IMG/VR virus record: IMGVR_UViG_3300031999_006178
Location: 1 to 42,758 of that record
DNA: 42,758 nucleotides
Strand: one strand, 5' to 3'
Source: a virus
Shown here: positions 3,475 through 31,462 of the stretch, piece by piece
Layout of the letters: every line of letters starts with the position of its first letter
Position numbering within the stretch: position 1 is the first letter of the stretch
Notes under the pieces: generated by a model
The model's database searches: none
The model's input: the letters and a program-made list of their open reading frames with translations, nothing else
What the model was told of the DNA's origin: nothing
Translations under genes and position numbers: made by a program

Positions 3475-4947
3475 TCACGCAACTCCCAGGCACACGTCGC
3501 AGGCGCCGCAACCATTGTCCGCTTCCTTACGGGCGCGGCTCGGATCGACCGGCGGTGGTCGATGCTCCTGGCCGAAGTATTCGACTAGGTGGGCGTGACG
3601 ACACAGGGGGAGGGCGTCGCGGTACTTGAAACCGCAGAAGGCTTCCATGTCGCTGAGGGCGATCATCTTGCCGTGGTAAGCGGGATCGTCCGCTCCCTGA
3701 CGGTCGCGGTTCTGAAATATGGAGAGCCAATGGTGATGGTCGTCGGGGGAGTAGAGCAAGACGCACTCCGCGGGTCGGCCGTCGCGGCCGGCCCGGCCGA
3801 TCTCCTGATGATAGATATCCAGCGAAGAAGGCATTCCGTGGTGGATCACGAAACGGACGTCGGGCTTGTCGATGCCCATGCCGAAAGCGATGGTGGCGAC
3901 GACGATCCGCGATCTCTGATCGCGGACCAGAGCCCCGGCGTTCACGCCGGGGGAATTCCGCCCGCCATGAATGGCGGGGCTCGGGCACGGCGCGGAATCG
4001 GGGGCAATGAACCATTCGTGGACGGCGCGGCGCTCTTCGGAGGAAAGGCCGGCGTGATAGGGGCGGGCAGACAAACCGTATGCGGAAAGCATCGCGGCGA
4101 CGCGCTCAGTTTCGGCGCGGGTGGGGCAGTAGACGATGCCGTCGACAGCCGAAGGGACAGAGGGACGAAGGGACGAAGGGATCGAGCGGATCACCTTGAC
4201 CAAGTGGGCATCGGGGTCCCGCGGGTCGCGGAAAACAACGCGGAGGGTTAGGGTGGGGCGGTCGAAGTCGCCGATGAGTTCCACCGGTTTGCGGAGCATG
4301 AGGGATTCCTTGATCTGCTCGCGCACGCGCGGGGTGGCGGTGGCGGTGAAGGCGGCGACGGGAACGTGAGGGAACATCACCCGCAATTGGCCGAGTTTGG
4401 CGTATGCGGGACGGAAGTCGGGACCCCAGATGCTGATGCAGTGGGCCTCGTCGATGACGAAGCTGCGCAGTTCGCATTGCATGAGGACGGGCAGGAAGGC
4501 GAGATCGTCGCAGCGCTCAGGTGAAACGTAGAGCAGACGCAGACGGCCGTCCTTGGCGGCGCGGACCTTCTCATCGTTTATTCGCCAATGATCGCCGCTG
4601 TGGATGCAGTCGGCGGCGATGCCCCGCGACTTGAGGGCCATGATCTGATCGTCCATGAGGGCGATGAGGGGAGAAACAACGAGGGTCAGGCCGGACTCGG
4701 CGACGGCGGGAAGCTGATAGCAAAGACTTTTGCCGCTGCCGGTGGCCATGATGACCAGAGAGTCCTCGCCGTTCAGCGAAGCCTCGATCGCCTCGCGCTG
4801 CAGGGAGCGGAACTCGATCACGCCGAAGAGGCTCGCGGCCAGATTGCCAATTGTCGATTGCCGATTGTCGATTGAACGGCGAGAGCGGCGCTGACCCGTC
4901 GCTGGCGATCCGGGATTCGATCGTTGAATGGGCAGGGTTACCGTCAT
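3475..4947 (-). CDS. RecQ-type DNA helicase with in-frame repeat insertions
   Basis: 490 aa, a 3'-5' superfamily 2 helicase. Visible motifs: FRSLQ motif 0 (46-50), Walker A ATGSGKS (68-74), DEAHC with the aromatic-rich loop ISIWGPDFRP (166-180), motif III FTATATP (200-206), motif IV IVYCPTR (271-277), motif V VVATIAFGMGIDKPDVRF (349-366), motif VI QEIGRAGRDG (381-390), and zinc cysteines C449, C480, C483, C486. The winged-helix and HRDC domains are absent. Start at 4947 is favoured by AAAGGGAG upstream, but a GTG at 4971 overlapping the lipoprotein stop (GTGA) is possible. Repeat-encoded insertions lie at about residues 25-35, 255-266, 317-345, 410-420 and 465-478, between conserved motifs. 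A role in replicative transposition or recombination is inferred. Confidence 0.9.
   Translation of the reverse strand: MTVTLPIQRSNPGSPATGQRRSRRSIDNRQSTIGNLAASLFGVIEFRSLQREAIEASLNGEDSLVIMATGSGKSLCYQLPAVAESGLTLVVSPLIALMDDQIMALKSRGIAADCIHSGDHWRINDEKVRAAKDGRLRLLYVSPERCDDLAFLPVLMQCELRSFVIDEAHCISIWGPDFRPAYAKLGQLRVMFPHVPVAAFTATATPRVREQIKESLMLRKPVELIGDFDRPTLTLRVVFRDPRDPDAHLVKVIRSIPSSLRPSVPSAVDGIVYCPTRAETERVAAMLSAYGLSARPYHAGLSSEERRAVHEWFIAPDSAPCPSPAIHGGRNSPGVNAGALVRDQRSRIVVATIAFGMGIDKPDVRFVIHHGMPSSLDIYHQEIGRAGRDGRPAECVLLYSPDDHHHWLSIFQNRDRQGADDPAYHGKMIALSDMEAFCGFKYRDALPLCRHAHLVEYFGQEHRPPPVDPSRARKEADNGCGACDVCLGVA
3519..3543 (+). repeat. family G repeat in recQ
   Basis: CCGCTTCCTTACGGGCGCGG then CTCGG, read in frame as SRARKEADNG immediately before the final zinc cysteines. 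Confidence 0.8.
3690..3714 (+). repeat. family G repeat in recQ
   Basis: CCGCTCCCTGACGGTCGCGG then TTCTG, read in frame as FQNRDRQGAD after motif VI. It matches the copies at 12261 and 14947 closely. Confidence 0.75.
3929..3985 (+). repeat. family A double-hairpin element inside recQ
   Basis: AGAGCCCCGGCGTTCACGCC, then GGGGGAATTCCG, then CCCGCCATGAATGGCGGGGC and TCGGG. It lies between helicase motifs IV and V, where normal RecQ proteins have only a few residues, and is translated in frame on the minus strand as about 27 extra residues including AIHGGRNSPGVNAGA. The preceding TGATCGCGGACC is also present before the copy at 26250. Confidence 0.9.
4151..4184 (+). repeat. family B tract inside recQ
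   Basis: GAAGGGACAGAGGGACGAAG followed by another octamer, read on the minus strand as SIPSSLRPSVPS in the linker between the two helicase lobes. Confidence 0.85.
4842..4876 (+). repeat. family C heptamers in recQ N-terminus
   Basis: GATTGCC, AATTGTC, GATTGCC, GATTGTC, GATTGAA in tandem, read on the minus strand as SIDNRQSTIGN before motif 0. Confidence 0.85.
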
Positions 4948-4967
4948 GAGATCTCCCTTTGCGAGAT

Positions 4968-6011
4968 TCACTTCTCCGTGAACGGGGCGCTGGTTGCTTT
5001 CGGTGCGGCGGAGGGCAGCTTCCGTATTTGCACCGTAAGCGCTTGCCGTATCTCAAACGTGAGCGATTTCGCCGCCTCCGCGAATCGTACCACCCCTGGA
5101 TATATGATGACCTCCGCACCCGGTCCCCACTTGTCCAACACGAGATTGAGAGGGACGCCGACTTCTTCATCGAGCCAAAAGTTGTCGCCGTGACCTGGAC
5201 CGTAGAAATACAGCTTCGGAATGGTTGGCAATCGGCTGAGGGCTTGCAAACGGGCGTCGGCGAACTTCCGCCACCGATCTTCGACCGCACCACGTCCCTG
5301 ATACCGCAGATTCACGAACCGGAACCTCGACAAGGTCTTGGCTACGACCTCGCAAACGGCGGCGTTGCGATCCTGGGTTACTTGTTGAAAGCCGAAGATG
5401 CTCGGGTTCCACCAGTATTCGACGCCCGTTGGAAGCAGTTTCAGGCCGCTCGCCAGAAGGGCAAGGTCAATGGTTTGCGTGCCGTCAACGTAAGACTTCA
5501 TGGCCTTCTCATTCTCCAACAGCACAATCGGGATATGCGCGGCGGTCATTGGTTCTCCGGCAACGATAAGCCGGACCTCGGCGGCGACGTTGCGCCATCC
5601 CTCCACGTTGTCGAATTGCGGGAGTAGGTCCATTGTTTTGAGGCCGGGGATGATTCGCATGTTGGGAACGAGGGCCTTTAACGTCGTGAAAAGACTGGCC
5701 TTTCCGGGCATCGTCGAGACGATGCCGGCGTAGGCCAGACAGCTATCCCGCCATGTTTGCAGACCGAAGACGATTTCGTCGAGCATGCACGGTGGGTAAT
5801 TGAGTTCCACCCAGGGAATGACTTTCAGGGGGAAATATCTGCACAGTCGTGCTTCCGCGCCGACTTCACCGAAGGCGGACCCGGTCACCTTTGCCTTATC
5901 TGCGACCTCGGGTTTCGTCAGCCCGGGCATGGGAGGACTCGTTGCGGCGCACCCTTCGAGGGCATATCCGGCGATGAGTCCGAACAGAAATAACAACGCG
6001 ATCCGCTTCAA
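4968..6011 (-). CDS. lipoprotein, possibly TIM-barrel hydrolase-like
   Basis: 347 aa from a TTG that overlaps the upstream stop (TTGA) and follows AAGGAAA. This start gives a clean signal peptide, LKRIALLFLFGLIAGYALEGC, with the lipid-attachment Cys at residue 22. The longer open frame upstream is rejected. The mature part has alternating predicted strands and helices (VIPWVELNYPP; IPIVLLENEKAM; VEYWWNPSIF; KLYFYGPGHGD; EVIIYPGVVRF), with acidic and aromatic residues at strand ends as in TIM-barrel glycoside hydrolases. I cannot name a family. Its place in the early operon suggests expression with early lytic genes or in the lysogen: superinfection exclusion, envelope modification or a role in lysis are all possible. 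Confidence 0.7.
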   Translation of the reverse strand: MKRIALLFLFGLIAGYALEGCAATSPPMPGLTKPEVADKAKVTGSAFGEVGAEARLCRYFPLKVIPWVELNYPPCMLDEIVFGLQTWRDSCLAYAGIVSTMPGKASLFTTLKALVPNMRIIPGLKTMDLLPQFDNVEGWRNVAAEVRLIVAGEPMTAAHIPIVLLENEKAMKSYVDGTQTIDLALLASGLKLLPTGVEYWWNPSIFGFQQVTQDRNAAVCEVVAKTLSRFRFVNLRYQGRGAVEDRWRKFADARLQALSRLPTIPKLYFYGPGHGDNFWLDEEVGVPLNLVLDKWGPGAEVIIYPGVVRFAEAAKSLTFEIRQALTVQIRKLPSAAPKATSAPFTEK

Positions 6012-6619
6012 GGGATTTTCCTTTCTTCGCGGCTCAGAACGAGCCTTTCGTTTGGGTTGGACGGCGCGGCGGGACTTTCGCGGCGCGCCACCATGTCCTT
6101 CAACGCGCGGATCACCTCGCCCGCGCGGGCGGTGGTGAGGAGATCGCGGGGTTCCTTGACCTTCCAGTTCTTGAGGAACCACGCCGAGGCGGCGGCGAGG
6201 TTGCCCTCGAAATAGCGGAGCATCAGACGGCCGATTTGCTCGATGTGGTCCGACTGGATCGTGCGGGGAATGGAGCGCCCCAGAGCCCCGGCGTTTACGC
6301 CGGGCGGAATTCCCCCCGCATGAATGCGGGGACTCGGGCGATGACGGGGGCTCGGGCGGCGACGGCGATAGGGCCAGGGCTTGCCGCCCGGAGGATTAGG
6401 CAAGTCGCGGCCGGAGAAATGCTTGATCCAATCGGAGCAGTCCTTCGCGGAGAGGGCGCAGAGCGAACCGCCGACCATTGCCCGCAGTTCGTGAACGTCG
6501 AGGCCGCGCTTGAGCGCCGCGAGCACCAGGGTTTGATGCTGCTTCTTGCTGCTGGAGCGGGGAATGTCGTGCAGCGACGGGATTGGCGATTGGCGATTGG
6601 CGATTGTCGAATGAGTCAT
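6008..6619 (-). CDS. GemA-like (Mu gp16, DUF1018) protein with inserted palindromic repeat
   Basis: 203 aa. The N-terminal half (KQHQTLVLAALKRGLDVHEL, then SAKDCSDWIKHF) and the C-terminal half (DHIEQIGRLMLRYFEGNLAA, then SAWFLKNW and TARAGEVIRALKDMVARR) match the two-part layout of Mu GemA proteins, which modulate host gene expression and DNA topology early in infection. The start codon lies within a family-C heptamer tract, so the first 15 residues are repeat-encoded. A family-A element encodes residues of about 87-113 (PSPRIHAGGIPPGVNAGA) exactly between the two halves. It overlaps its neighbours on both sides (ATGA and TTGA). Confidence 0.75.
   Translation of the reverse strand: MTHSTIANRQSPIPSLHDIPRSSSKKQHQTLVLAALKRGLDVHELRAMVGGSLCALSAKDCSDWIKHFSGRDLPNPPGGKPWPYRRRRPSPRHRPSPRIHAGGIPPGVNAGALGRSIPRTIQSDHIEQIGRLMLRYFEGNLAAASAWFLKNWKVKEPRDLLTTARAGEVIRALKDMVARRESPAAPSNPNERLVLSREERKIP
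6282..6338 (+). repeat. family A element inside the gemA-like gene
   Basis: AGAGCCCCGGCGTTTACGCC through CCCCCGCATGAATGCGGGGA and CTCGGG, followed by an extra GACGGGGGCTCGGG copy of the 3' part. It is translated in frame between the two conserved halves of the protein. Confidence 0.9.
6581..6614 (+). repeat. family C heptamers covering a start codon region
   Basis: GATTGGC repeated three times, then GATTGTC and GAATGAG. The first codons of the GemA-like gene lie in this tract. Confidence 0.85.
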
Positions 6620-7437: not shown

Positions 7438-8565
7438 TCAGGCCGTGGCGACGGCACTCCGTTGCTGGCGGATCAACTCCTGATCGGCGGCGCCGGGACG
7501 CAGAAGCGAATCGACATGGGCTAGATCGTCGGCGGCGATGGTCACGACGTCGTCTTCGGAAAGACTTTGACGCTTGCGGGCGCGACGCGCGCCGTTCATC
7601 ACCAATACCCGGCAACGTCGCAACGATCCCCAGCCGAGAAGGTTGGCTACGTCGAGCAGGTACGCGGCGGCGTCGGCGGCGAGGCGGATGGGCGGCTTCT
7701 CGTAGAGCTTGCGAATCTGCTCGATGGTGAAGTACTTCTTGCCGCCCGATTCGGCGCTGTGGCCTTGAACCACGTCGCGGATCACATCGAACCGGGAATG
7801 AATCTGCCCCGCGTCGGGTTGGGCGGTGCGCTCCACGCGATCGCGGAGGTCTTTGGTGGCCAAGAGGAGAATCGGGCATCCCGTGTCGTCGTGAATCTCA
7901 CGGAGGACCTCGATGGCGTCGTCGTTGAGCTTGTGGGCTTCGTCGATAAAGAGGAGCCGGTTACTACCGCGGAGTTCATCGAGGATACGCTCGAACTGCG
8001 TGATGCGGTTGGCGCTGCTGCTGACCGGCTTGCGAAAGCCAAGCTCGCGGGCGATCAGGCGGATTAGGCCGGTCGGGGCATAGGCCCCATGCTTGACGGT
8101 GACGAAGATAGCGCCCGGAGTGTTGGCTTTGAAAGCCATAGCGCAACGTGTCTTGCCGATGCCGCTCGGGCCGACGGCAAGTCCCATCGTGCCGTTTTCC
8201 AGCACCAACTGGGCGATGGCCCGGATCTGGGTCGCGGTCCTGATGTCGACGAAGTCGCCGTCGAGTTTGGCGGCCTCGCGGCGGGCGTGTTGCTCGACCC
8301 AGGCGTTGAGAACACGTATCTGCTGGTCGGCGTTCTCACGGAACTTGTAGATGACCAACTCGCGGATCGTCGATCCGCGGGGAGTTCCGACCTCGCGTCC
8401 GACGTCGGAAAAGTTGATGTCCCGGCGCTTGCAGTAGGCGGCGAAGTTGGCCATCGCCTGCTTGCGCTCGGCGTCGGTGAGAGATCCTTCGTTCGGCAGC
8501 GTCCATGCAGCCATTAGCGTATCCTGGTCCGTCAGGAAACCCTGGAGTTCCTGATTGTCGGTCAT
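7438..8565 (-). CDS. MuB-like AAA+ transposition target activator
   Basis: 375 aa. An N-terminal helix-turn-helix (DINFSDVGREVGTPRGSTIR, about 49-68) is followed by an AAA+ domain: Walker A GPSGIGKT (132-139), Walker B LLFIDEAH (204-211), sensor I LLLATKD (233-239) and a possible arginine finger SRFD (257-260). This is the layout of MuB and other ATPases that bind target DNA, activate the transposase and confer target immunity. The start overlaps the transposase stop (ATGA), as expected for the A-B pair. Confidence 0.9.
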   Translation of the reverse strand: MTDNQELQGFLTDQDTLMAAWTLPNEGSLTDAERKQAMANFAAYCKRRDINFSDVGREVGTPRGSTIRELVIYKFRENADQQIRVLNAWVEQHARREAAKLDGDFVDIRTATQIRAIAQLVLENGTMGLAVGPSGIGKTRCAMAFKANTPGAIFVTVKHGAYAPTGLIRLIARELGFRKPVSSSANRITQFERILDELRGSNRLLFIDEAHKLNDDAIEVLREIHDDTGCPILLLATKDLRDRVERTAQPDAGQIHSRFDVIRDVVQGHSAESGGKKYFTIEQIRKLYEKPPIRLAADAAAYLLDVANLLGWGSLRRCRVLVMNGARRARKRQSLSEDDVVTIAADDLAHVDSLLRPGAADQELIRQQRSAVATA

Positions 8566-10595
8566 GGAAAGTCGTCAATCTCCGAAGACTCACCGTCGCC
8601 TTGCGGCGACGGCTCCGAGAGTAGATCGTCGCAATCCCAATCGGCCTCCGGCGGGCGCACTTCTCCGGAGAGAAGTTCGCTGAGATCGCCGGGCACGAGG
8701 TCGCGCATAGAGGCCGATTCAACCCACGTTTGAGGGGGGATCGACTGGCCCTCGAAGCCGCATCGAACGGGGGCGATGTTGGGGCGGGCGTTGTCGGTCC
8801 CGGTGGCGCGAAGAGTTGCCGCTTGCTCGCGGCGATCGCGGTCGAGAACGGCGGATACATCGAGCGTGCGGCGGGCGGACTTCTTGGCGTAGTCCACCAT
8901 CTCCTTGCGATTGCGATTCACCGCGGCGCTGGCCTCACGGAGGTCATCGCTCTTGTCCAGGGGATGAATGCGTTTGTTGGGGTCCAGAACGCAAATCTGC
9001 CGGTGATTGCCGGTTTCGTAAGCGACGCAACGCGCCGGATATTCGGGATCCACGGACACCAGTACCTTGCGCCCGATCCAGGGGCGGAGGCCGGCGGTGC
9101 GGGCCCCGTATCCGAGGTGTTTGCCGCAGACGGTGAGGTGCACCCCGTTGGGACCGACCTTGTACTCGCCGCGAATGGAAATCAGACAATCCAGTTCGCC
9201 TTCGACGGCCTTGCGAAGGCGCGGCGCGGCATTCCATGCAGCGAGCGGCGAGCGGCCGTTCATGCCTTCGCCACGATGCGCGGCGGCATGGTAGATGGTC
9301 AGGTAATCGCCTATCGCGGCGGCGGCGCCCTCAAGAGTCGGAACGGCGCTGCCGTCGACCAGGGCAAGAGGATCGACGCCGCGACCGGTATATCCGTCGC
9401 GGATCAGTTGCAGGCTCTCCGGGCGAGCCGATGGAGTGTGGCCGCAATAAGTATTGAAGAGCTTGCCGCACTGATCCTCGAAAGTGCGGAAGAAACGTTC
9501 CAGAGTGCCCTTGCTCCAGGGCGAGTAGCGCTTGGCCAGGATCAGTTCAACCCCCAGTTCGGGCACGATTCCTCGCCAGCGGGGATCGTCGCAGACCACG
9601 TGATCGCGGCTCCTGCGGACGATGGCTTTCCATTGCGGGCCGTAGTCGCGGCGCAGGGCGCGAGCCTCCATCTTGGTCAGACCGGTGAGGGCCTTGGCGG
9701 TGAAGTCCTTGCCGTTGTCGACGCGCATAACTTCAGGAATGGCCTCGCGGAATGCCATCCGTAGAGCGACCAGGATCGCTTCCTGGTGAGGAGCCGGGCC
9801 TAGATGCCAGCCCGCGATGCGCCGCGAACCGCAGTCTTGAATGGCGGTTAGCCACGGACGAATCTGGTGATCCTTGTAACGAACCCAGAAATCGACCTGA
9901 TGGTGATCGCAGACGTAGAAGCGGCCTGGATCGACGGCGTCCCAATCCTGCTCGCTGTAGGGCATGTATTTCTTGGAGTGGAGCGTCTTGCCGTTCCGGC
10001 AGAGGAAAGTCAGAGGGATGTCGTCACAATCGCGCAGCCAGCGAGCGGTCGCGGACACGCTGGGCGGCCAGGACCATCCTTCGCGGCGGGATTCACGCTG
10101 GGTGATCTCGTGGCAGAGTTTGAGGGTGAGTTTTCGCTCGGTTCGGAAAAGACCGTAAAAGAAGTTGATGGCGGCGGCGGAGCGGGAGGATTCACCGCCG
10201 GGGGCTGCGGTGCCACAGGCATAGCGATCGACCAGAGCCTCCAAGCCGCGAATCCGGCCGTCGTCGCCGATCGTGTTGTAGGCGGACCACCAGGACTGAA
10301 GGGAACGGAGGCTGATGAGGAAGTCGGCCCCTTCGTGCTGCTTGGCCTCGGCGACGACGACGCGAGCGATATCGCGGGCGGTGCGACATGGCGGCGCTTC
10401 GCTTGGCCATGCCACCCGCGGGGTAGCGCAGCGCGAACGCCACTCCTTCATCCAATACGCCTTGCGGTAGGCGCGTTCGACGTCATGCCGCGGAAATCGG
10501 GACTGAAGATTCTCGCGGGCGGCCTGCTGGCAGGCGTCACGGTCGGGATTGCCGATCGCCGATTGTCGAATGTCGAATGAGACTAGAGCCGTCAT
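8562..10595 (-). CDS. MuA-like DDE transposase
   Basis: 677 aa. The ATG at 10595 follows the zinc-ribbon gene stop by two bases, and the longer open frame is rejected. Residues 1-20 are partly encoded by family-C heptamers. Residues 34-190 form the sequence-specific DNA-binding region, shared with the protein at 2023-2649. The retroviral-integrase-like core has D230 (VCDHHQVDFWV), D293 (RVDNGKDF) and E366 (SKGTLERFF), so the DDE triad is intact. The rest (PWIGRKVLVSVDPEYPARCV, about 540-560) matches the beta-barrel domain after the core. It cuts and joins phage ends during lysogenisation and replicative transposition. The likely sites are the GGTTCTGCGCTG copies at both ends. Confidence 0.95.
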   Translation of the reverse strand: MTALVSFDIRQSAIGNPDRDACQQAARENLQSRFPRHDVERAYRKAYWMKEWRSRCATPRVAWPSEAPPCRTARDIARVVVAEAKQHEGADFLISLRSLQSWWSAYNTIGDDGRIRGLEALVDRYACGTAAPGGESSRSAAAINFFYGLFRTERKLTLKLCHEITQRESRREGWSWPPSVSATARWLRDCDDIPLTFLCRNGKTLHSKKYMPYSEQDWDAVDPGRFYVCDHHQVDFWVRYKDHQIRPWLTAIQDCGSRRIAGWHLGPAPHQEAILVALRMAFREAIPEVMRVDNGKDFTAKALTGLTKMEARALRRDYGPQWKAIVRRSRDHVVCDDPRWRGIVPELGVELILAKRYSPWSKGTLERFFRTFEDQCGKLFNTYCGHTPSARPESLQLIRDGYTGRGVDPLALVDGSAVPTLEGAAAAIGDYLTIYHAAAHRGEGMNGRSPLAAWNAAPRLRKAVEGELDCLISIRGEYKVGPNGVHLTVCGKHLGYGARTAGLRPWIGRKVLVSVDPEYPARCVAYETGNHRQICVLDPNKRIHPLDKSDDLREASAAVNRNRKEMVDYAKKSARRTLDVSAVLDRDRREQAATLRATGTDNARPNIAPVRCGFEGQSIPPQTWVESASMRDLVPGDLSELLSGEVRPPEADWDCDDLLSEPSPQGDGESSEIDDFP
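10546..10580 (+). repeat. family C heptamers in transposase N-terminus
   Basis: GATTGCC, GATCGCC, GATTGTC, GAATGTC, GAATGAG in tandem. The minus strand encodes SFDIRQSAIGN at the start of the transposase. Confidence 0.85.
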
Positions 10596-10597
10596 CT

Positions 10598-10840
10598 CTA
10601 CGCCACCCGCGCATCCGCCAAACGTTGCAGGAACTTTCCCAAGGCGACCGGCTCGGTCGCGGCCCGGTAATCGAGGGCGAAGACGGAGCCGTCGTCGTAG
10701 AAAGAGGCCTCGTAGCCGACGCCGCAAAACTCGCAGTATACGAACTTGTCCACGCGATCGGGCCCGCGGGCCTCGGCGAAGTCCTCGCGGGGGATCATGC
10801 CGCCGCAGCGGGGGCATTCCTGGTAATCAACATGCAGCAT
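10598..10840 (-). CDS. small zinc-ribbon protein
   Basis: 80 aa. Two CxxC knuckles, ECPRCGG (9-13) and YCEFCG (35-39), with an acidic C-terminal half. The start overlaps the end of the upstream gene by 14 bases in another frame. It lies directly before the transposase. Zinc binding is read from the cysteines and function is unknown. Confidence 0.7.
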   Translation of the reverse strand: MLHVDYQECPRCGGMIPREDFAEARGPDRVDKFVYCEFCGVGYEASFYDDGSVFALDYRAATEPVALGKFLQRLADARVA

Positions 10841-11135
10841 CGGGAACCTCCACGGTCGATTGCCGATTGGCGGCGGCGCACCAGGGGCACAGTTTGGTCA
10901 GTTCCCCCGCCAGGACGGCGCGGTCCTGGGGAGCGCAAAGTACATCGCGCATTTCACGGCGGGCGCAGGCGCAGCGGACGTTCACGGCCAGATGCTCGTA
11001 AGCCTCCGCGAAGTTGATCGCCAGCCAACCGAGGGCGAAGGCCGCGAGGCCCCAGAGGATGTCCGTCACAGGGACATAGGGACAGAGGGACGAAGGGACG
11101 GAGGGAAAAACAGAAACGCAGAAAGCAGAAATCAC
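10827..11135 (-). CDS. small membrane protein with repeat-encoded N-terminus
   Basis: 102 aa from a GTG overlapping the upstream stop (GTGA). Family-B octamers encode SVFPSVPSSLCPYVPV at residues of about 9-23. One transmembrane helix follows (DILWGLAAFALGWLAINF), then a Cys-containing C-terminus (CACARREMRDVLCAP, LCPWCAA) that could bind zinc. Function unknown. Confidence 0.55.
   Translation of the reverse strand: MISAFCVSVFPSVPSSLCPYVPVTDILWGLAAFALGWLAINFAEAYEHLAVNVRCACARREMRDVLCAPQDRAVLAGELTKLCPWCAAANRQSTVEVPDAAC
11068..11106 (+). repeat. family B tract inside a gene
   Basis: CAGGGACATAGGGACAGAGG followed by GACGAAGGGACGGAGGGA, translated in frame on the minus strand before the transmembrane helix. 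Confidence 0.85.
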
Positions 11136-11653: not shown

Positions 11654-11888
11654 GAAGAGGCCTCCTTGCCTGGGACGAAGGGACACTGGGACGTAGGGAC
11701 GAAGGCACTGAGGGACAAAGGGACGAAGGAACGACCGGAGAAACGGGTTGTGAAATCCCTTGGGGAACGGGGTTCGCCGGAGTACCATTCAAGGAAAGGA
11801 CGCTGAATAGAGCATCGCCGAAGCGGGTGCAGACGCACACGCCGGGGTCGGCGTCGAGGAGTCGTTCGGTTGAGCGGTTCGTCGTCAT
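11628..11888 (-). CDS. doubtful first ORF of the early operon
   Basis: 86 aa open frame. Residues 1-50 (TNRSTERLLDADPGVCVCTR, then FGDALFSVLSLNG) look plausible, but the C-terminal 35 residues are encoded by family-B octamers (VPSSLCPSVPSSLRPSVPSS). It overlaps the next gene's start. No family recognised. It may be a short leader peptide or not expressed. Confidence 0.3.
   Translation of the reverse strand: MTTNRSTERLLDADPGVCVCTRFGDALFSVLSLNGTPANPVPQGISQPVSPVVPSSLCPSVPSSLRPSVPSSQARRPLRERRAPRR
11671..11733 (+). repeat. family B tract upstream of the early regulator
   Basis: Seven or so degenerate octamers (GGGACGAA, GGGACACT, GGGACGTA, GGGACGAA, and so on) between the doubtful ORF body and the GTG start at 11653. 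Confidence 0.85.
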
Positions 11889-11895
11889 CGCATCC

Positions 11896-11957
11896 GCCCC
11901 GCATGAATGCGGGGGCTCGGGCCCTGAACCCCGGCGTTCACGCCGGGGGAGTTCGGG
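11896..11957 (+). repeat. family A element with hairpins in swapped order
   Basis: The ATG-containing hairpin (GCCCCGCATGAATGCGGGGG, then CTCGGG) comes first and the CCCCGGCGTTCACGCCGGGG hairpin second, the reverse of the other copies. This suggests two partial copies or a phase-shifted tandem. Confidence 0.8.
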
Positions 11958-13874: not shown

Positions 13875-13928
13875 GCGGGGATCGGAGAGCATGTTAGCAA
13901 GGAGTTAGGGTGTTTGTCAAGCCTATTT

Positions 13929-13956: not shown

Positions 13957-13981
13957 GGGGCCGGGGGCCGAGAATGCGGGG

Positions 13982-14676: not shown

Positions 14677-14689
14677 GTTGCGCCTCCGA

Positions 14690-14733
14690 GCCGGGCGGAA
14701 TTCAGCCCCCCGCATGAATGCGGGGGTTCGGGC
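14690..14733 (+). repeat. partial family A element
   Basis: GCCGGGCGGAATTCAGCCCC then CCGCATGAATGCGGGGGTTC. The first arm of hairpin one is missing. A further GCCGGGCGGAAT fragment follows at about 14737. Confidence 0.8.
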
Positions 14734-16215: not shown

Positions 16216-16220
16216 ATCAA

Positions 16221-16505
16221 ATGCGGCGGATTCGCTGGGAAAAGGGTTACGAGGGGTTCGCATGGGGGTGCCTGATCGCGGCGGCGGCGCTGATCGCCGG
16301 GGCCGCGATTGCGGGTTGCCACCTCCATTTCCATGCCTTCGAGAAGCACTACCACGAACAGGGGACGAAGGGACTAAGGGACGAAGGGACTGAGGGAACG
16401 GACCCGTGGATCGAGGCGAACCCGAGGGGCGAACCGGGGATCGAAATCGTGATCCCGGAGCCCCGAACCCCGGCGTTTACGCTGGGCGGAGTTCCCCCCG
16501 CATGA
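16221..16505 (+). CDS. small lipoprotein with repeat-encoded tail
   Basis: 94 aa. A single hydrophobic segment (AWGCLIAAAALIAGAAIAGC) ends in a good lipobox (IAGC). After HLHFHAFEKHYHE, family-B octamers encode GTKGLRDEGTEGT, and a family-A element encodes the last 15 residues and the stop. A short lipoprotein next to a holin-like gene suggests an Rz1/spanin-like part, but this is inference. GTG at 16212, overlapping the upstream stop, is an alternative start. Confidence 0.6.
   Translation: MRRIRWEKGYEGFAWGCLIAAAALIAGAAIAGCHLHFHAFEKHYHEQGTKGLRDEGTEGTDPWIEANPRGEPGIEIVIPEPRTPAFTLGGVPPA
16361..16398 (+). repeat. family B tract inside a lipoprotein gene
   Basis: GGGACGAA, GGGACTAA, GGGACGAA, GGGACTGA in tandem, read as Gly/Thr/Asp/Glu-rich sequence in frame. 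Confidence 0.9.
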
Positions 16506-16519
16506 ATGCGGGGGCTCTG
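16457..16519 (+). repeat. family A element at a gene 3' end
   Basis: GGAGCCCCGAACCCCGGCGT through CCCCGCATGAATGCGGGGGC. It supplies the C-terminal codons and stop of the lipoprotein gene. Confidence 0.9.
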
Positions 16520-17528: not shown

Positions 17529-17530
17529 CC

Positions 17531-17624
17531 GGAGCCCCGGCGTTTAAGCCGGGCGGGATGCCGCCCGCATGAATGCGGGGGCTCGGGCGCGGGGGCTCGG
17601 GCGCGGGGGCTCGGGCGCGGGCGT
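17531..17624 (+). repeat. family A element with tandem 3' ends
   Basis: CGGAGCCCCGGCGTTTAAGC through CCCGCATGAATGCGGGGGCT. The unit GGCTCGGGCGCGGG follows in three tandem copies up to about 17624, ending just before a GGAG leader and start codon. Confidence 0.9.
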
Positions 17625-20197: not shown

Positions 20198-21517
20198 ATG
20201 AACGGACTGAAACAACTGGCGATGCGGGTAGGCGAGGCGATCGGCGCATTGCGCGGGCGCCCGCCCGAGGGGCGGGTGTACGCCTGGAACTCGGCGCTCG
20301 ACAGCCTGCGAAGTACGCTCACGCCACGGCTAACCTTTACCAACCTGGCGGCCCTCATCAGCCAGGGCAAGGACGGAGATCTGGCGACGACGCTGGCCCT
20401 GTACGAGGAAATGGAGCAACGCGATCTGCGGCTGCGGAGCGTCGCCAACACGCGGCGGCTGGCGCTCACGCGGCTGGACTATGAGATCGTCTCCGCGTCC
20501 GAGTCCATGCAGGAGGGGGCGGACCAAACGCTGGCCGACGACGCGGCCGCGTATGTGCGCGAAGCGTTCCAAGGGCTGGACGGACTGGACCGCACGCTCA
20601 AGCACCTGGCTACGGCCATCGGGCCGAACCTGGCGGTAGCGGAAATCGAATGGGAGAACTACGAACCCATCGCCGTGTTCCCCATCCCCAGTGACCGGCT
20701 CACGATGCAACTTCACCAGTCCAACGAGGTGCGCATCGTCACCCAAGAGCAACGGCTGGGGATGCCCGCGGCGACGCCGAAGTTCATCGTACACGTGCCG
20801 GACTCGGTGAGCGGGTCGCCGCTGGCGAAGTCGCTCTCCGAGGCCCAGGCGTGGATCTGGCTCATGAAGAAACTGGCCCTCGCGGACTGGGCGATCTTTT
20901 GCGAAATCTTCGGAATGCCGGTGCGGATCGGGAAGTACCGGCCCGCCGCTACGACCGAAGAAAAGAACATCCTCAGAACCATGCTTCAGAGCGTCGGGAC
21001 CAACGCCTGGGCGATGGTCAGTGAGGGGACATCGATCGAATTCACGGAGTCGAGCCAGCGGGGCATCGCCCCATACGAGGCGCTGCTCAACTTCTGCAAT
21101 CGGGAAACGGCGGTGGGCTGGCTGGGCGGCAACCTTACGACCGAAAGCACCGGCGTGACCGGCGGGCTCGCGGCGGCGGTAGTGCAGGACGCCGTCCGCG
21201 ACGACATCCGCGACGACGACATCAAGAACGAATCGGCCACGGTGGGCAAACAACTCATCACCCCGATGGCGGCGTTCAAGTATCCCGGCCGGGACGTGCC
21301 GTTGCCCACCTTCCGGAGGGTCAAACCGGAGACGGTGGATCGGCAGAAGGAGGCCCTGCTGCTCCGCGCGGCGCAGGGCGCGGGCGTGCAGGTGCCGAAA
21401 GCCTGGGCCTACAAGCGGCTGGGGATACCCGAACCGCAAGAGGGAGATGAGGTGCTGGAGCCGGTAGATGCGTTTACCGCGGGAGTGATGGAAGGGAACC
21501 CGGAGGAAGGGACGTAG
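20198..21517 (+). CDS. portal protein (DUF935, Mu gp29-like)
   Basis: 439 aa, the usual length. LYEEMEQRDLRLRSVANTRR is the conserved portal segment, followed by IGPNLAVAEIEWENYEPIAV, LALADWAIFCEIFGMPVRIG, EFTESSQRGIAPYEALLNFC and DIKNESATVGKQLITPMAAF. It forms the dodecameric ring at the capsid vertex that docks terminase. The last residues run into family-B octamers. Confidence 0.92.
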   Translation: MNGLKQLAMRVGEAIGALRGRPPEGRVYAWNSALDSLRSTLTPRLTFTNLAALISQGKDGDLATTLALYEEMEQRDLRLRSVANTRRLALTRLDYEIVSASESMQEGADQTLADDAAAYVREAFQGLDGLDRTLKHLATAIGPNLAVAEIEWENYEPIAVFPIPSDRLTMQLHQSNEVRIVTQEQRLGMPAATPKFIVHVPDSVSGSPLAKSLSEAQAWIWLMKKLALADWAIFCEIFGMPVRIGKYRPAATTEEKNILRTMLQSVGTNAWAMVSEGTSIEFTESSQRGIAPYEALLNFCNRETAVGWLGGNLTTESTGVTGGLAAAVVQDAVRDDIRDDDIKNESATVGKQLITPMAAFKYPGRDVPLPTFRRVKPETVDRQKEALLLRAAQGAGVQVPKAWAYKRLGIPEPQEGDEVLEPVDAFTAGVMEGNPEEGT

Positions 21518-21603
21518 GGACTGGGGGACGAAGGGACGGGGTAATCGGAGCCCCGGCGTTCACGCCGGGGGGATTCCTCCCCGCGTGAATGCGGGGGCTC
21601 GGG
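21505..21603 (+). repeat. family B tract followed by family A element
   Basis: Octamers at 21505-21540 (GAAGGGACGTAGGGACTGGG), then the full A element at 21546-21603 and an extension GGGCACTGCGGGGGCTCGGA shared with the copies near 26310 and 30880. Confidence 0.9.
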
Positions 21604-21636
21604 CACTGCGGGGGCTCGGATGGAGCGCAGCGACGA

Positions 21637-21924: not shown

Positions 21925-22665
21925 ATGCCCGTATCGGTGCTAACCAAGGCGGACTTCACGCCGCGACCGGCGACGGAGGCGGCGGGGCACTTCGCCAAGA
22001 AGGTGGCGCTCACCCACGAGGCATTCGAGTTGCTGTCGGCGGAGGCCAAACGCCATGCCTTCCGCGTGGCCACGGTACACAAGGCGCGGATGATTCAGGA
22101 CATCCGCAACGTGGTGGAAAAGGCGATCGAACAGGGCACGGATTGGTCGGCGGTGCAGCGGGAACTACTCAAGAAATTCGACACCGAGGGCGTGCCCAGA
22201 CCGGCGCTCTATCGACTGCGGGCGATGTTCCAGCGGAACACGATGGACGCATACAGGGCCGCGCGGCGGGAAGTGCTCGACGAACCGGAGATAGTCAATT
22301 TCTTTCCCTATCGGATGTACTGGACGGTGGGGGATGGGACGCCGGGAGTCAACAACGTGCGGGCCACGCACGCGGCCCTGCACGGCAAGGTGTTCACCTG
22401 GGACGATCCGATCTGGGATGCGTATGTGCCCCTACAGGAATGGGGATGCCGCTGCACGTTCGTGGGCCTCACCGCGGGGCAGGCCAAGGCGCGAGGCGAG
22501 GTGATCGACCTGGCCTATGTGCGGACGCGGATCGCCGTGCCGGGAACGGAACGCAGGGGCATCGCGGAGAGGCCGGGGTTCGCCCCGGGAGAGTTTGATC
22601 TGCGGAACATCGAAAAGGAATTGCGCGAAGCGGTAAAGGGGATGATCGGCGAAGAAGGGACGTAG
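21925..22665 (+). CDS. MuF-like minor head protein (SPP1 gp7 family)
   Basis: 246 aa. FQRNTMDAYRAARREV, YWTVGDGTPGVNNVRATHAA, LHGKVFTWDDPIWDAYVPLQ and EWGCRCTF are the diagnostic MuF region with its conserved GCRC. The protein binds the portal and is packaged in the head. The C-terminal residues meet the family-B tract at 22655-22690. Confidence 0.92.
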   Translation: MPVSVLTKADFTPRPATEAAGHFAKKVALTHEAFELLSAEAKRHAFRVATVHKARMIQDIRNVVEKAIEQGTDWSAVQRELLKKFDTEGVPRPALYRLRAMFQRNTMDAYRAARREVLDEPEIVNFFPYRMYWTVGDGTPGVNNVRATHAALHGKVFTWDDPIWDAYVPLQEWGCRCTFVGLTAGQAKARGEVIDLAYVRTRIAVPGTERRGIAERPGFAPGEFDLRNIEKELREAVKGMIGEEGT

Positions 22666-22690
22666 GGACGAGGGGACTGAGGGACGGAGT
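22655..22690 (+). repeat. family B tract supplying a ribosome site
   Basis: GAAGGGACGTAGGGACGAGG then GGACTGAGGGACGGAG. The final GGAG sits eight bases before the ATG of the protease gene. Confidence 0.85.
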
Positions 22691-22697: not shown

Positions 22698-24062
22698 ATG
22701 CCGATGCCCAAACCAAACGACGGGGAGTCGCATAACGCCTTTGTCAATCGCTGCATGGGCGACGCGATGATGAATGGAGACTTTCCCGAAGGGGATCAGC
22801 GACGCGCGGTGTGCGAGCGGCAATGGAGCGAGCCGATGGCGATGAAGAGCGATTGTCGGTTGTCGATTGACGATTGTCGAATGGTCCTGCGGGCGACGGA
22901 CTTCGCGGGTCAGGCGGAGACGATCGACGTGCTCATCGCACCGGACGGCGCCGTCAAGTCAACCAGTGGGGATTTCACCTTTGATGAGGAATCGTGGGCG
23001 GCGATCGACAAGGCTTTCAGCGAGCACAACACGATGCTCGTCATCGACTATGAGCATCAAACGCTGGGCGGGGACTACGCCTCGCCGGATGGAACGTCGC
23101 CCGCGGCGGGATGGGTGAAACTGAAGGGGCTGCGCTATGAGAAAGGCAAGGGGCTCGTCGCCTCCGTGGCGTGGACGGAGCGGGCCCGAAACCTGATCCG
23201 GGCGGGCGAATACCAGTATGTCTCGCCGGTGCTCATCGTGCGCAAGGCGGACCGCAAGGCCATCGGATTGCATTCCGTGGCATTGACTAACAAACCCGCG
23301 ATCGAGGGCATGGAGCGTGTCGCGGCGAAGGACACGAACCAGGGACTTGGGGACGAAGGGACGAAGAAACAGGATGACAAACTGGCCGCCGGCCAGAGAA
23401 AGGACAGGGCTATGAATGAGCTGCTGCTCATCGGGAAGGATCTCGGCCTGGCGGAAGCCGACTGCAAGGTCGAGACCATTACGAACAAGATCGGCGAACT
23501 GAAGAAGCGGGCGGAGGCGGCGGACGCGCCGGGGGCGACCGTCAAAGCGGTGTGCAAGGAACTGGGCCTGCCGGAGAGCGCGGGGGCCGAGGCCATCAGT
23601 GCCAAACTCAAGCTCATGCACGAGGCGTCGGCGAACTCAGACAAGAACGTGGCGCGGCTCGCGGAGGTCGAAAAGCAGTTGACCGAGATCCGCGTCAACA
23701 GGCTGCACGCCATGCTCGAGGAGAAGGCCAAGATCAACGCGATCAACCCCAACAGCGACACCTACAAGGCGCTGAAGGCGTTGGCGACCAAGGACCCGGA
23801 TAGTTTCGTCGTGATCGTGAACGGCTTGGAGCCGGTGATCGCTCCGGGGCGGACGACGCCGCCGGAAGGCGGGGCGAATACCGCGGCGGGCAAGGAAGAT
23901 GAACTGATCGCCAACTCCGTGAAGGACCACAAGGGGGACTACGGCGAGGCGATCGTGGCGTTGCAGCGCGATCTGAAAAAACCGTACCTCGAACAGGGCC
24001 TGACCCAGAAAGCGGCCAACGCGGCCTGCGCCGCGAAGTATCCGAAGGTTTTCGCGGCCTGA
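22698..24062 (+). CDS. gpI-like head maturation protease with scaffold domain
   Basis: 454 aa from the ATG eight bases after GGAG (GTG at 22689 is the alternative). Residues 10-45 (SHNAFVNRCMGDAMMNGDFP, EGDQRRAVCERQW) form a small domain also seen in other phage prohead proteins. A family-C linker (CRLSIDDCRM) follows, then the gpI protease: VIDYEHQT, PAAGWVKLKGL, VAWTERARNLIRAGEYQYVS, VALTNKPAI. A family-B linker (QGLGDEGTKKQD) leads into the helical scaffold region (AEVEKQLTEIRVNRLHAMLE). Thus repeats mark both domain borders. Confidence 0.88.
   Translation: MPMPKPNDGESHNAFVNRCMGDAMMNGDFPEGDQRRAVCERQWSEPMAMKSDCRLSIDDCRMVLRATDFAGQAETIDVLIAPDGAVKSTSGDFTFDEESWAAIDKAFSEHNTMLVIDYEHQTLGGDYASPDGTSPAAGWVKLKGLRYEKGKGLVASVAWTERARNLIRAGEYQYVSPVLIVRKADRKAIGLHSVALTNKPAIEGMERVAAKDTNQGLGDEGTKKQDDKLAAGQRKDRAMNELLLIGKDLGLAEADCKVETITNKIGELKKRAEAADAPGATVKAVCKELGLPESAGAEAISAKLKLMHEASANSDKNVARLAEVEKQLTEIRVNRLHAMLEEKAKINAINPNSDTYKALKALATKDPDSFVVIVNGLEPVIAPGRTTPPEGGANTAAGKEDELIANSVKDHKGDYGEAIVALQRDLKKPYLEQGLTQKAANAACAAKYPKVFAA
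22845..22882 (+). repeat. family C heptamers inside the protease gene
   Basis: GATTGTC, GGTTGTC, GATTGAC, GATTGTC, GAATGGT, translated in frame between the N-terminal domain and the protease. Confidence 0.9.
23341..23366 (+). repeat. family B tract inside the protease gene
   Basis: GGGACTTG, GGGACGAA, GGGACGAA, translated in frame between protease and scaffold parts. Confidence 0.9.
23412..24062 (+). CDS. nested scaffold protein (gpZ-like internal start)
   Basis: 216 aa in the same frame as the protease. An ATG preceded by AAAGGACAGGG lies just after the protease domain and family-B linker. In Mu the scaffold gpZ is made from an internal start within gene I in this way. The product (MNELLLIGKDLGLAEADCKV, then long coiled helices) has the composition of a scaffold. 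Confidence 0.6.
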   Translation: MNELLLIGKDLGLAEADCKVETITNKIGELKKRAEAADAPGATVKAVCKELGLPESAGAEAISAKLKLMHEASANSDKNVARLAEVEKQLTEIRVNRLHAMLEEKAKINAINPNSDTYKALKALATKDPDSFVVIVNGLEPVIAPGRTTPPEGGANTAAGKEDELIANSVKDHKGDYGEAIVALQRDLKKPYLEQGLTQKAANAACAAKYPKVFAA

Positions 24063-24141: not shown

Positions 24142-24519
24142 ATGATCCAAGCGACTATCCTTCAAACCAAGAACTTCATAGCCGGTGCGGCGATCGACAA
24201 GAACAAGATCGTCATGTTCGGCTCGGATGACGATAGCGTCATCCACGCCACGGCGGCGACGGACAGGCCGGTCGGCGTGTCGTTGGCCGCTGCCGCCTCC
24301 GGGGCCCGGGTGGACGTTGCATTGCAGGGCATCGCGGAGGTGAAACTCGGCGGAACCATCGCCCGTGGGGGTGACGTGACATCGGGCGCGGCGGGCGTCG
24401 GTGTTGATCTGTCCGCGGCGGCGACCATCAAATCCAGTATCGGTCGAGCGATGGCCAGCGGCGACTCGGGAGACGTCATCCCCGTCAACTTGAACTTATG
24501 GTCGGCGACGACTGCGTAG
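24142..24519 (+). CDS. head decoration protein (DUF2190-like)
   Basis: 125 aa after AAAGGAA. KNFIAGAAIDKNKIVMFGSD, VGVSLAAAASGARVDVALQG, AEVKLGGTIARGGDVTSGAA and GRAMASGDSGDVIPVNL are the beta-tulip-like repeats of capsid cement proteins. It would bind the outside of the capsid made by the next gene. Confidence 0.85.
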   Translation: MIQATILQTKNFIAGAAIDKNKIVMFGSDDDSVIHATAATDRPVGVSLAAAASGARVDVALQGIAEVKLGGTIARGGDVTSGAAGVGVDLSAAATIKSSIGRAMASGDSGDVIPVNLNLWSATTA

Positions 24520-24520
24520 T

Positions 24521-24590
24521 CGGGATCCCGGCGTTTGCGCCGGGTGGAATTCCGCCCGTCACCGCCCGCCATGAATGGCGGGGCTCGGGT
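24521..24590 (+). repeat. degenerate family A element
   Basis: GGGATCCCGGCGTTTGCGCC, an 8-base insertion CGTCACCG, then CCCGCCATGAATGGCGGGGC. The paired changes in the second stem (CGCCATGAATGGCG) match the recQ copy. Confidence 0.85.
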
Positions 24591-25662: not shown

Positions 25663-25720
25663 TGACGGTCGGGGTCGGTTGCGGGCCACAGGGGTGATGG
25701 CCTGACCGACCGCGGACTAC

Positions 25721-25778
25721 CGAGCCCCGGCGTTCACGCCGGGCGGGATTCTCCCCCGCATGAATGCGGGGGCTCGGA
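25721..25778 (+). repeat. family A element
   Basis: CGAGCCCCGGCGTTCACGCC through CCCCCGCATGAATGCGGGGG and CTCGG, about 28 bases before the next start. Confidence 0.92.
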
Positions 25779-25806
25779 TATGGCGGGGTTCGGGCCGAGC
25801 GACGCG

Positions 25807-26241
25807 ATGAGCTACATCGTCAACCAGGACATCGTCGACCGCGTGGGCAACGACCGGGCGGTGCAACTGAGCAGCGACTCGGGCACGGCGGTCAATACCA
25901 ACGTGCTCGACGAGGTGCGGCTCAGCAGCGAGGGCGAGGTTAACGGGTACCTGGCGAAGCGGTACGCCGTGCCCGTTGATCTCACGGCCCACCCGGACCT
26001 GGACGCCACGCTGTCGGGATTCACGTTGGATATCGCGGTGTACCGGCTGATGCTCCGCCGGCCGCCGGTGCCGGAAGACATCCGCCGGGCGTATGACAAT
26101 GCGGTGAAGTGGCTGGTGGCGGTGTCGAAGGGCGAGGTAATTCTGCCCGCGGATACGCCGCCGGCGTCGGCAACGGCGGACGCCCCGACGATTGACTGGG
26201 GGAGCAGCGAGCAGAACGCGGCGATGCTCCGGGATCTGTGA
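25807..26241 (+). CDS. DUF1320 (Mu gp36-like) head-tail connector
   Basis: 144 aa; the ATG after GAGCGACGCG is chosen over an upstream one in repeat sequence. YIVNQDIVDRVGNDRAVQLS, VLDEVRLSSEGEVNGYLAKR, LDIAVYRLMLRRPPVPEDIR and AYDNAVKWLVAVSKGEVIL are diagnostic for the gp36 family of adaptor proteins. Confidence 0.88.
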   Translation: MSYIVNQDIVDRVGNDRAVQLSSDSGTAVNTNVLDEVRLSSEGEVNGYLAKRYAVPVDLTAHPDLDATLSGFTLDIAVYRLMLRRPPVPEDIRRAYDNAVKWLVAVSKGEVILPADTPPASATADAPTIDWGSSEQNAAMLRDL

Positions 26242-26242
26242 T

Positions 26243-26337
26243 CGCGGACCGGAGCCCCGGCGTTCACGCCGGGGGAATTCCCGCCCCGCATGAATGCGGG
26301 GGCTCGGGTACGGCGGGGCTCGGGCACTGCGGGGGGT
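26243..26337 (+). repeat. family A element with extended flanks
   Basis: GATCGCGGACC precedes the core (also before the recQ copy). The core runs to about 26308, followed by GGTACGGCGGGGCTCGGGCA and CTGCGGGGGGTCGG, ending at the leader of the next gene. Confidence 0.9.
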
Positions 26338-27778: not shown

Positions 27779-28330
27779 ATGAGCACGCTTTCGGCCATCA
27801 GCAGACTCGCATCCCACGGGACGCCGATTGCGGCGATGACCGGCGTCGCCGTGCACGACGGGTCGCTGGCGTCGCTCACCGAGGCGTGGATCGTGGAACG
27901 GTTGCAGACGCTGAGCGTGTTCGCGGACGCGAAGATCGAGCCGTTTCCGGGGACGAATGCGGCGTCGGGCGAGAAGCTGGTGGAGGAAATGCTGGCCCAC
28001 CGACGCACCTACATCGCCGTGCTCTTCGAGAGCGACCGGGCGATCGAACTGGAAGAGGGTCAGCAGGACTATGAGTCGACCTACGCGATCTACGTCACGG
28101 TGCAGAACGCCCGGCCCGCGGCGGCGAGAAAGGGTGACGGGCGGACGCCGGGGACGAACCTGATGCGCGATCTGCTGCGCAACGCACTGCATAACCAGGA
28201 AGTGAACCTATCCGCCAACGGGTTCTGGGCGGGCCGGGCGGAGTTTCGGGGAGTGACGGCGGTCTTCCAGCGGGCGGACGCCTTCATCATGCGGGCGGAG
28301 TTGGTGGTGAGAGAAGCCGCCGCAGCGTAG
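27779..28330 (+). CDS. DUF1834 (Mu gp37-like) tail terminator
   Basis: 183 aa behind GGAGCGTAGCGACGC. LASLTEAWIVERLQTLSVFA, EKLVEEMLAHRRTYIAVLFE, TYAIYVTVQNARPAAARKGD, GTNLMRDLLRNALHNQEVNL and RAELVVRE match gp37-family proteins that cap the tail tube. Confidence 0.8.
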   Translation: MSTLSAISRLASHGTPIAAMTGVAVHDGSLASLTEAWIVERLQTLSVFADAKIEPFPGTNAASGEKLVEEMLAHRRTYIAVLFESDRAIELEEGQQDYESTYAIYVTVQNARPAAARKGDGRTPGTNLMRDLLRNALHNQEVNLSANGFWAGRAEFRGVTAVFQRADAFIMRAELVVREAAAA

Positions 28331-28335
28331 CGGCG

Positions 28336-28382
28336 GAGGGACATAGGGACTGAGGGACGAAGGGACGGAGGCACGAAGGGAT
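28336..28382 (+). repeat. family B tract
   Basis: GGGACATA, GGGACTGA, GGGACGAA, GGGACGGA, GGCACGAA, with GAAGGGA then serving as the ribosome site of the next gene. Confidence 0.9.
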
Positions 28383-28387
28383 AGACG

Positions 28388-29290: not shown

Positions 29291-29293
29291 CCC

Positions 29294-29387
29294 CGAGCCC
29301 CGGCGTTTACGCCGGAGTAGGGAAGTTCAAAGTTGAAAGTTCAAAGTTCAAAAAAACGACGTCTTTGCACTTTGCACTTTGAACTTC
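29294..29387 (+). repeat. truncated A element followed by family E
   Basis: GAGCCCCGGCGTTTACGCCG only (hairpin one), then GTTCAAAGTTGAAAGTTCAA and an opposite-sense TTTGCACTTTGAACTTCGG. The gap where tail-assembly chaperones usually lie is only 112 bp here and non-coding. Confidence 0.85.
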
Positions 29388-30821: not shown

Positions 30822-30823
30822 AC

Positions 30824-30882
30824 CGGAGCCCCGGCGTTTACGCCGGGGGAATTCCGCCCCGCATGAATGCGGGGGCTCGGGC
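30824..30882 (+). repeat. family A element
   Basis: CCGGAGCCCCGGCGTTTACG through GCCCCGCATGAATGCGGGGG and CTCGGG, then CACTGCGGGAGCTCGGATGG leading into the next start. Confidence 0.92.
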
Positions 30883-30908: not shown

Positions 30909-31400
30909 ATGGGCACGACGCCGCGATTTGGAGGGACGAACGGAGTTGACGAGCTGGACCTCGGCCAGGCGGGCGGGGCGCGGCGAGCCAACAATCTGGC
31001 CTTCTACACCGTGCAGGTACACGAAGGTCCGGACCGGGCGGCGGTGGTAGATCAGAAGATCGTGCAGCAGAACGTGGCCTTCGAAGACAACCTGGGCTTC
31101 GAGCAGGCGCGGATTGTATGGTCGGGGACGCTAAAGGTGAGCAGCGACGCGGTGCTGGGGGCGATCGTGAGCGACCTCAATCGGACCAAGCACGGCAGCG
31201 CTCGAGTATCGGGGGCGCTGGCGGCACCGTCGCCGGGGGCGATGAAGCCGACACAGTTGGTGAACTCCTTCGGACGGACACTCTCCAACAACGCGGTGCT
31301 GGAGGACTGGAGTTTCGACGGGCCGGTGAAGGCGATGTCCGGGGGAGGGGCGTTTACGTTGATCGTGGGGTTGAGAGTCGTTTTTAAGATGCTCGGATGA
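30909..31400 (+). CDS. minor tail protein of unknown type
   Basis: 163 aa; ATG after GATGGAGCGACG. The N-terminus is Gly-rich (GTTPRFGGTNGVDELDLGQA) and the rest strand-rich (LAFYTVQVHEGPDRAAVVDQ; ARIVWSGTLKVSSDAVLGAI; FTLIVGLRVVFKML). Genomic position implies a tail tip or hub part. No family recognised. Confidence 0.6.
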   Translation: MGTTPRFGGTNGVDELDLGQAGGARRANNLAFYTVQVHEGPDRAAVVDQKIVQQNVAFEDNLGFEQARIVWSGTLKVSSDAVLGAIVSDLNRTKHGSARVSGALAAPSPGAMKPTQLVNSFGRTLSNNAVLEDWSFDGPVKAMSGGGAFTLIVGLRVVFKMLG

Positions 31401-31401
31401 A

Positions 31402-31462
31402 CCGGAGCCCCGGCGTTTACGCCGGGGGAATTCCCCGCCCCGCATGAATGCGGGGGCTCGGA
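31402..31462 (+). repeat. family A element
   Basis: CCGGAGCCCCGGCGTTTACG through CCCCGCATGAATGCGGGGGC, followed by GATGCGGGGGTCGGACGGAG and the next start. Confidence 0.92.

Follow-up and report, generated by a model that had tools for sequence, protein, structure and literature searches.

REPIN-like palindromes of a Mu-like phage, two of them in frame within its proteins, and their relatives beside planctomycete RAYT genes

Repetitive extragenic palindromes (REPs) are served by REP-associated tyrosine transposases (RAYTs), which recognise REPs in single-stranded form and cleave next to the hairpin, close to CT, before rejoining it (PMC8266576). In Pseudomonas, REP doublets were proposed to be the mobile unit (PMC3116915), and many chromosomal REPs sit just behind stop codons (PMC3733652). 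In-frame REP dimers lie in repair and tRNA-related genes, and REP clusters encode 43-82 residues (PMC3733652). The palindromes that flank class 3 TnpA_Y1 genes, which occur mainly in Planctomycetes and Acidobacteria, have the foot CnGA (PMC6006769). Replicative horizontal transfer of REP doublets forming hairpins (REPINs) has been judged unlikely, because without a RAYT they cannot copy themselves onto a vehicle and back, and their populations are regarded as inherited vertically (PMC8049555). Here, a doublet palindrome is described from the virus record IMGVR_UViG_3300031999_006178, analysed over its full length of 42,758 bp (the window). The element is probably a non-autonomous palindrome of Planctomycetota, of the type of REPINs or bacterial interspersed mosaic elements (BIMEs), presumably moved onto the phage in trans by a host RAYT.

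The palindrome occupies 13 places in the phage (Table 1), and all 13 copies claimed in an earlier note on this DNA proved real by BLAST inside the window (E-values 4e-27 to 2e-6). The double-hairpin form that the note gave to the family holds at ten places; the other three have single or swapped halves, namely a pair in reversed order (11893-11954), a right hairpin with a partial left half (14688), and a left half alone (29292). The two halves of a doublet are reverse-complement homologues with a common foot, a CCC/GGG stem, and a TTYA loop. Read 5′ to 3′, a unit consists of the foot CnGA(G), a stem of CCC, a variable segment and T, a loop of TT or TC, and the mirrored stem to GGG, after which it continues through CGG towards a GGAATTCC-like centre where two units meet. 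The CnGA foot was found in 23 of 24 REP units, the exception being the left unit of 24518, and a GTAG tetranucleotide foot was not encountered in the phage. All 13 places are oriented alike on the plus strand, with flanking genes on both strands (two-sided sign test, ~0.0002), a feature that the note does not mention. Placement is mainly extragenic, most copies lying behind stop codons, two being fully intragenic, and one standing at a gene end. Six right-arm copies start no more than 8 nt from a stop codon or overlap one, and seven copies among the rightward genes overlap a stop codon or follow one within ~30 nt. A leader like CGGAGCGNAGCGACG before the next start codon is shared downstream of the copies at 17529, 21545, 26249, 30823, and 31402.

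The hairpins themselves are well formed. Eleven of the 12 palindrome stretches fold better than dinucleotide shuffles (z < -2.5), whereas the stretch at 14688 does not pass that threshold (z -1.3). Across the phage and planctomycete copies 94.6% of cells are paired, a percentage biased upward by a hairpin set partly chosen by pairing ability; compensation was therefore judged by the variety of pair types. Three of the eight stem pairs, at positions 4, 5, and 7, have two-sided changes, such as G-C to C-G and G-C to A-T. Stem covariation reached 0.332, compared with 0.131 ± 0.024 in shuffles. The compensated stem changes asserted previously are borne out, as is the proposal of a palindrome that is selected or copied by way of its hairpin. 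The palindrome has no match in Rfam. An intrinsic terminator was rejected as its function, since the hairpins have no T-run (TTTT was absent from the 25 nt next to each copy).

Two copies contribute codons to phage proteins, in each case read on the minus strand and in the same frame. The 28-residue insert of the RecQ-like helicase is absent from all three of the compared orthologues from planctomycete prophages, and the insert of ~25 residues in the GemA-like protein is absent from all four prophage orthologues compared. Because these orthologues are without the inserted residues, both inserts represent true in-frame insertions, as had been claimed. The RecQ insert directly precedes the motif IVVATIAFGMG in the second helicase domain, and at this site the phage protein has 30 residues, compared with two in solved RecQ chains. 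The name GemA is weakly supported: Pfam and PHROGs gave no name for the phage protein itself, and an orthologue matches PF06252 with an E-value of 0.029, a match that falls short of the family's cut-off. A further copy forms the C-terminus of a lipoprotein-like product, again in agreement with the note, the open reading frame (ORF) having its TGA stop within the right hairpin. In the RecQ-like gene, an octad array (4151-4187) also seems to supply in-frame residues, SIPSSLRPSVPSAVDG, and the RecQ orthologue at L103 has octad-type residues at the same place and at one other.

The best relatives outside phages, which reach 91% identity across 56 nt, are in a metagenome-assembled genome (MAG) of Planctomycetota, G001. 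Its copies, on contig C21, flank a Y1_Tnp domain on both sides within a single open frame of 1486 residues, in which Pfam also identified MmeI methyltransferase, spacer, and target recognition domains. Later in this gene comes a cluster of palindromes alone, and there the homologue of G031 has a different RAYT. The G001 inserts encode the same kind of peptide as the phage inserts (SPRIHAGRMPPGVNAGA), short GCGGGGGCTCGG reiterations trail many right halves in both the phage and G001, and reiterated GGGGCTCGG tails likewise occur in both. Phage-like hairpins also adjoin RAYTs in G029 (C20) and G065 (C5 and C17), and related palindromes with the foot CTAG/TTAG lie beside a RAYT in G100 (C527). 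Among RAYTs that share at least ~64% identity with the G001 enzyme, those of G029 and G065 C5 have full family palindromes, and that of G015 has partial ones, judged by eye from the encoded peptides; RAYTs of 44-52% identity had no family palindromes by the same search. A wider sample of the phylum gave matches in three further genomes, all weak. Matches to Y1 transposases numbered 4-11 in each of the eight planctomycete genomes tested and zero in the phage contig, which encodes no Y1/RAYT transposase gene. The G001 transposase has the NHVH and WT motifs and the Y-Q motif YVRNQ, with three residues between; RAYTs embedded in alanyl-tRNA synthetase (AlaRS) have YV..GQ. The CnGA foot and the distribution in Planctomycetes match the class 3 TnpA_Y1 group (PMC6006769).

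The contig is a Mu-like phage, with MuA-like and MuB-like genes in its left arm and those of the terminase, portal, head protease, and major capsid protein in its right arm. Planctomycetota genomes related to G001 hold Mu-like prophages whose MuA is 38-48% identical to that of the phage, and some of these prophages have the same divergent gene order, MuB being followed by genes for RecQ and a GemA-like protein. We take the host to be a planctomycete near G001. Scans of viral contigs with the portal and MuA proteins gave no close phage relatives, and MuA matches in the phages collection were all distant. The palindrome family was found in a second, unrelated phage contig, IMGVR_UViG_3300037264_009342 (L111, L112), which encodes a portal (phrog_156) and a head protein (phrog_14242), and which has three degenerate copies (doublets or halves) that share one orientation, plus further single units. 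The exact two-hairpin pattern was found in no other contig of the viral collection.

These findings suggest a route by which the phage may have gained its copies. Two REP units, each consisting of a 5′ CnGA(G) foot and a GC-rich hairpin (CCC, variable stem, TTYA loop, GGG), face each other across the common centre. A host Y1/HUH RAYT would recognise the single-stranded hairpin with its foot, cut beside the hairpin, and copy or paste the REPIN into single-stranded DNA. The Mu-like phage might have acquired copies in this way while replicating or resident in a RAYT-bearing host, and selection would have spared those just behind stop codons and those in frame in protein loops. If the copies did arise through a RAYT, it must have been one of the host acting in trans, since none is encoded by the phage. 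Insertion of single strands into one template strand, with a fixed direction of replication, would produce the uniform orientation, as would long chromosomal residence. Repeated cutting beside the foot, near CT, could leave reiterated tails as well as mosaic and swapped halves. The palindrome family, its compensatory stems, the in-frame inserts, and the relatives flanking RAYT genes are observed; the action of a host RAYT on the phage copies, its single-strand route, and strand-specific insertion as the source of their orientation are inferred.

Other origins of the copies have to be weighed. Sites duplicated for the phage's own regulation or architecture, such as mRNA 3′-end stabilisers, attenuators, operators, or replication or packaging sites, would account for the strong hairpins and for the seven copies at the stop codons of rightward genes, but they would not be expected inside coding sequence, where two copies lie, or at the end of a protein, which another copy forms. 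The lack of a T-run after any copy and of an Rfam match, the related Mu-like prophages without copies, and the occurrence of the family in an unrelated phage and beside chromosomal RAYTs make such an origin very unlikely. Recombination or gene conversion might instead have multiplied one original REPIN along the phage genome, with no transposase acting on phage DNA. The identical orientation of the copies is consistent with this, and the copies at 3927 and 26249 do have the common upstream flank TGATCGCGGACC, within a 37-nt stretch with six mismatches. However, the flanks of the other copies are unrelated, placement in frame in the RecQ-like and GemA-like genes requires an insertion event, and the hairpins of different copies differ in a compensatory manner, so that recombination is a most improbable source of the set.

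Another possibility is that the contig is a resident or decaying prophage that shares the REP load of its host chromosome, the insertions having occurred into the chromosome and not into replicating phage DNA. REPs build up in chromosomal DNA, Mu-like prophages are present in relatives of G001, and staying at one place would itself yield a single orientation, although continued transposition would lose that orientation relative to the chromosome. The head, packaging, and transposition genes of the phage and its RecQ and GemA-like frames are all intact, and other planctomycete Mu-like prophages have no such REPs; we consider residence unlikely, though it keeps some credit.

Several observations also weigh against a REPIN moved by a host RAYT. 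The exact two-hairpin pattern is rare: a search of 84,980 species genomes gave two loci, each in a planctomycete, and one of them, L004, is weak, BLAST having found no match in that genome. Within G001 the family is confined to one contig, and the RAYT there has Y-x3-Q, compared with the published Y-x4-Q of class 3. The actual host genome is absent from the collections searched; the REP-type Y1 transposase that the note had suggested looking for in the host was found as RAYTs beside the relatives in Planctomycetota. No target duplication or precise empty site is visible at the DNA level, the orthologues having diverged too far. Finally, ten relative Mu-like prophage stretches (~159 kb) have no such palindrome units. 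The palindrome load is thus no common trait of the clade's Mu-like phages, and its amplification may be peculiar to this phage.

RAYTs were also found in frame inside conserved planctomycete genes, the domains of the host frames being identified by Pfam in the seven frames tested. They lie within AlaRS in G100 and, in two copies, in G065; within an N-terminal extension of MutS in G029; within a class I aminoacyl-tRNA synthetase resembling IleRS in G065; within PurH in G002, G029, G065, and others; and within MmeI-type methyltransferases in G001 and G031. Open frames of at least 600 codons contain 38 of the 150 relatives listed for the G001 RAYT, including 13 of the best 14. In several genomes the PurH RAYT stands at the same place, after LCAELTR and before FIKHTNACG, and the RAYTs at this place belong to two different classes (L122, L124, L125, L128, L129, L067, L071, L072). 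No description of RAYTs in frame in conserved genes was found in the open-licence literature, to which the literature searches reported here were confined. Such frames in aminoacyl-tRNA synthetase, MutS, and PurH genes may point to a mobile-element strategy in which residence inside essential proteins is tolerated. A broader picture can be offered tentatively, with more doubt than conviction: a host RAYT might copy REPINs strand-specifically into replicating phage DNA, the phage might carry the population between hosts, and the planctomycete REP/RAYT system might habitually insert into conserved genes in frame and non-destructively, whether or not the transposase comes along.

Table 1. Positions of the palindrome copies and of selected genes in the phage window, and of RAYT-bearing frames in the loci named
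Feature	Position	Strand	Remarks
Doublet, REPIN-like	3927..3986	+	In frame (read on -) inside RecQ-like helicase gene
Doublet	6280..6339	+	In frame (read on -) inside GemA-like gene
Right half, first of swapped-order pair	11893..11922	+	
Left half, second of swapped-order pair	11920..11954	+	
Right hairpin and left-half remnant	14688..14733	+	
Doublet	16462..16519	+	C-terminal codons and stop of lipoprotein-like ORF 16206-16505
Doublet	17529..17588	+	Directly 3′ of TAA stop; reiterated GCGGGGGCTCGGGC tails follow
Doublet	21545..21604	+	28 nt past portal gene stop, behind octad repeat array
Doublet, enlarged linker	24518..24590	+	Overlaps TAG stop of ORF 24142-24519
Doublet	25720..25777	+	Between capsid gene and ORF 25780
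Doublet	26249..26308	+	8 nt past TGA stop of ORF 25780-26241
Left half alone	29292..29315	+	2 nt past TAA stop
Doublet	30823..30882	+	2 nt past TAG stop
Doublet	31402..31461	+	2 nt past TGA stop
RecQ-like helicase gene	3475..4971	-	28-residue insert PDSAPCPSPAIHGGRNSPGVNAGALVRD
GemA-like gene	6008..6619	-	~25-residue insert around PSPRIHAGGIPPGVNAGA
MuB-like ATPase (phrog_296)	7438..8565	-	
MuA-like transposase (phrog_310)	8562..10817	-	Mu-like marker of phage
RAYT (Y1_Tnp)-bearing frame	L062 2713-7170		
RAYT (Y1_Tnp)-bearing frame	L063 1949-5443		
RAYT (Y1_Tnp)-bearing frame	L064 864-5087		
RAYT (Y1_Tnp)-bearing frame	L067 2369-5263		
RAYT (Y1_Tnp)-bearing frame	L068 4780-9837		
RAYT (Y1_Tnp)-bearing frame	L070 3861-8801		
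RAYT (Y1_Tnp)-bearing frame	L071 2814-5345		

The phage has other repeats. The octad repeat (GGGACGAA)n and the related GGTTGAAG form many short dispersed arrays, mostly intergenic (672-716, 1028-1064, 11060-11112, 11669-11745, 14781-14825, 15301-15345, 16351-16403, 21498-21534, 22646-22690, and 28327-28387). Dispersed heptads, (TGTCGAA)n, were found at 1398-1433, 4843-4878, 6582-6617, 10548-10583, 13925-13960, 18272-18307, 22852-22887, and 33903-33989, and include one 37-nt inverted pair (33897-33989). A tandem pair of ~197-nt copies with 80% identity occupies 37988-38388.

No paper on REPINs in a phage was found in the open-licence literature searched, in keeping with the earlier remark that none had been described in a transposable phage. 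In-frame intragenic REPs are already known (PMC3733652); REPINs amplified in a phage are new as far as the literature found. This phage and IMGVR_UViG_3300037264_009342 speak for a phage route for REPINs. A phage with ten REPIN doublets, together with a second, unrelated phage that has several degenerate copies, provides a concrete candidate vehicle, with which the horizontal route becomes testable. The phage could thus transport elements whose transmission is believed to be almost solely from parent to offspring.

The nearest described systems are the REPINs and BIMEs mobilised by RAYT (TnpA_REP) (PMC3116915, PMC8266576), which likewise consist of two inverted REPs with a conserved foot, are non-autonomous, are linked to a Y1 HUH transposase, have mosaics and singlets as remnants, and often lie just behind stops. 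They differ in the foot, which is GTAG there and CnGA here, whereas the copies described here are in a phage genome without RAYT, have one orientation only, and include two in frame in phage proteins. The palindromes that Quentin et al. (2018, PMC6006769) described for TnpA_Y1 class 3 share the CnGA foot, occur in Planctomycetes, and flank a transposase gene with the NHVH and W[TA] motifs; in contrast, the G001 transposase has Y-x3-Q and is embedded in frame in another gene, and that study does not discuss phages. The GTAG/CGTC REPs that Di Nocera et al. (2013, PMC3733652) found within genes resemble the present inserts as in-frame REP dimers of 20-30 residues, but they lie in chromosomal genes and have other feet, whereas the genes here are phage genes for RecQ and a GemA-like protein. 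Rickettsia palindromic elements, which the earlier note had taken as the precedent and which PMC3733652 also names, likewise encode in-frame peptides, but presumably belong to another sequence family. With relatives that adjoin Planctomycetota RAYT genes, and with in-frame REPs described since 2013 (PMC3733652), the REP/REPIN-RAYT system is the nearer parallel.

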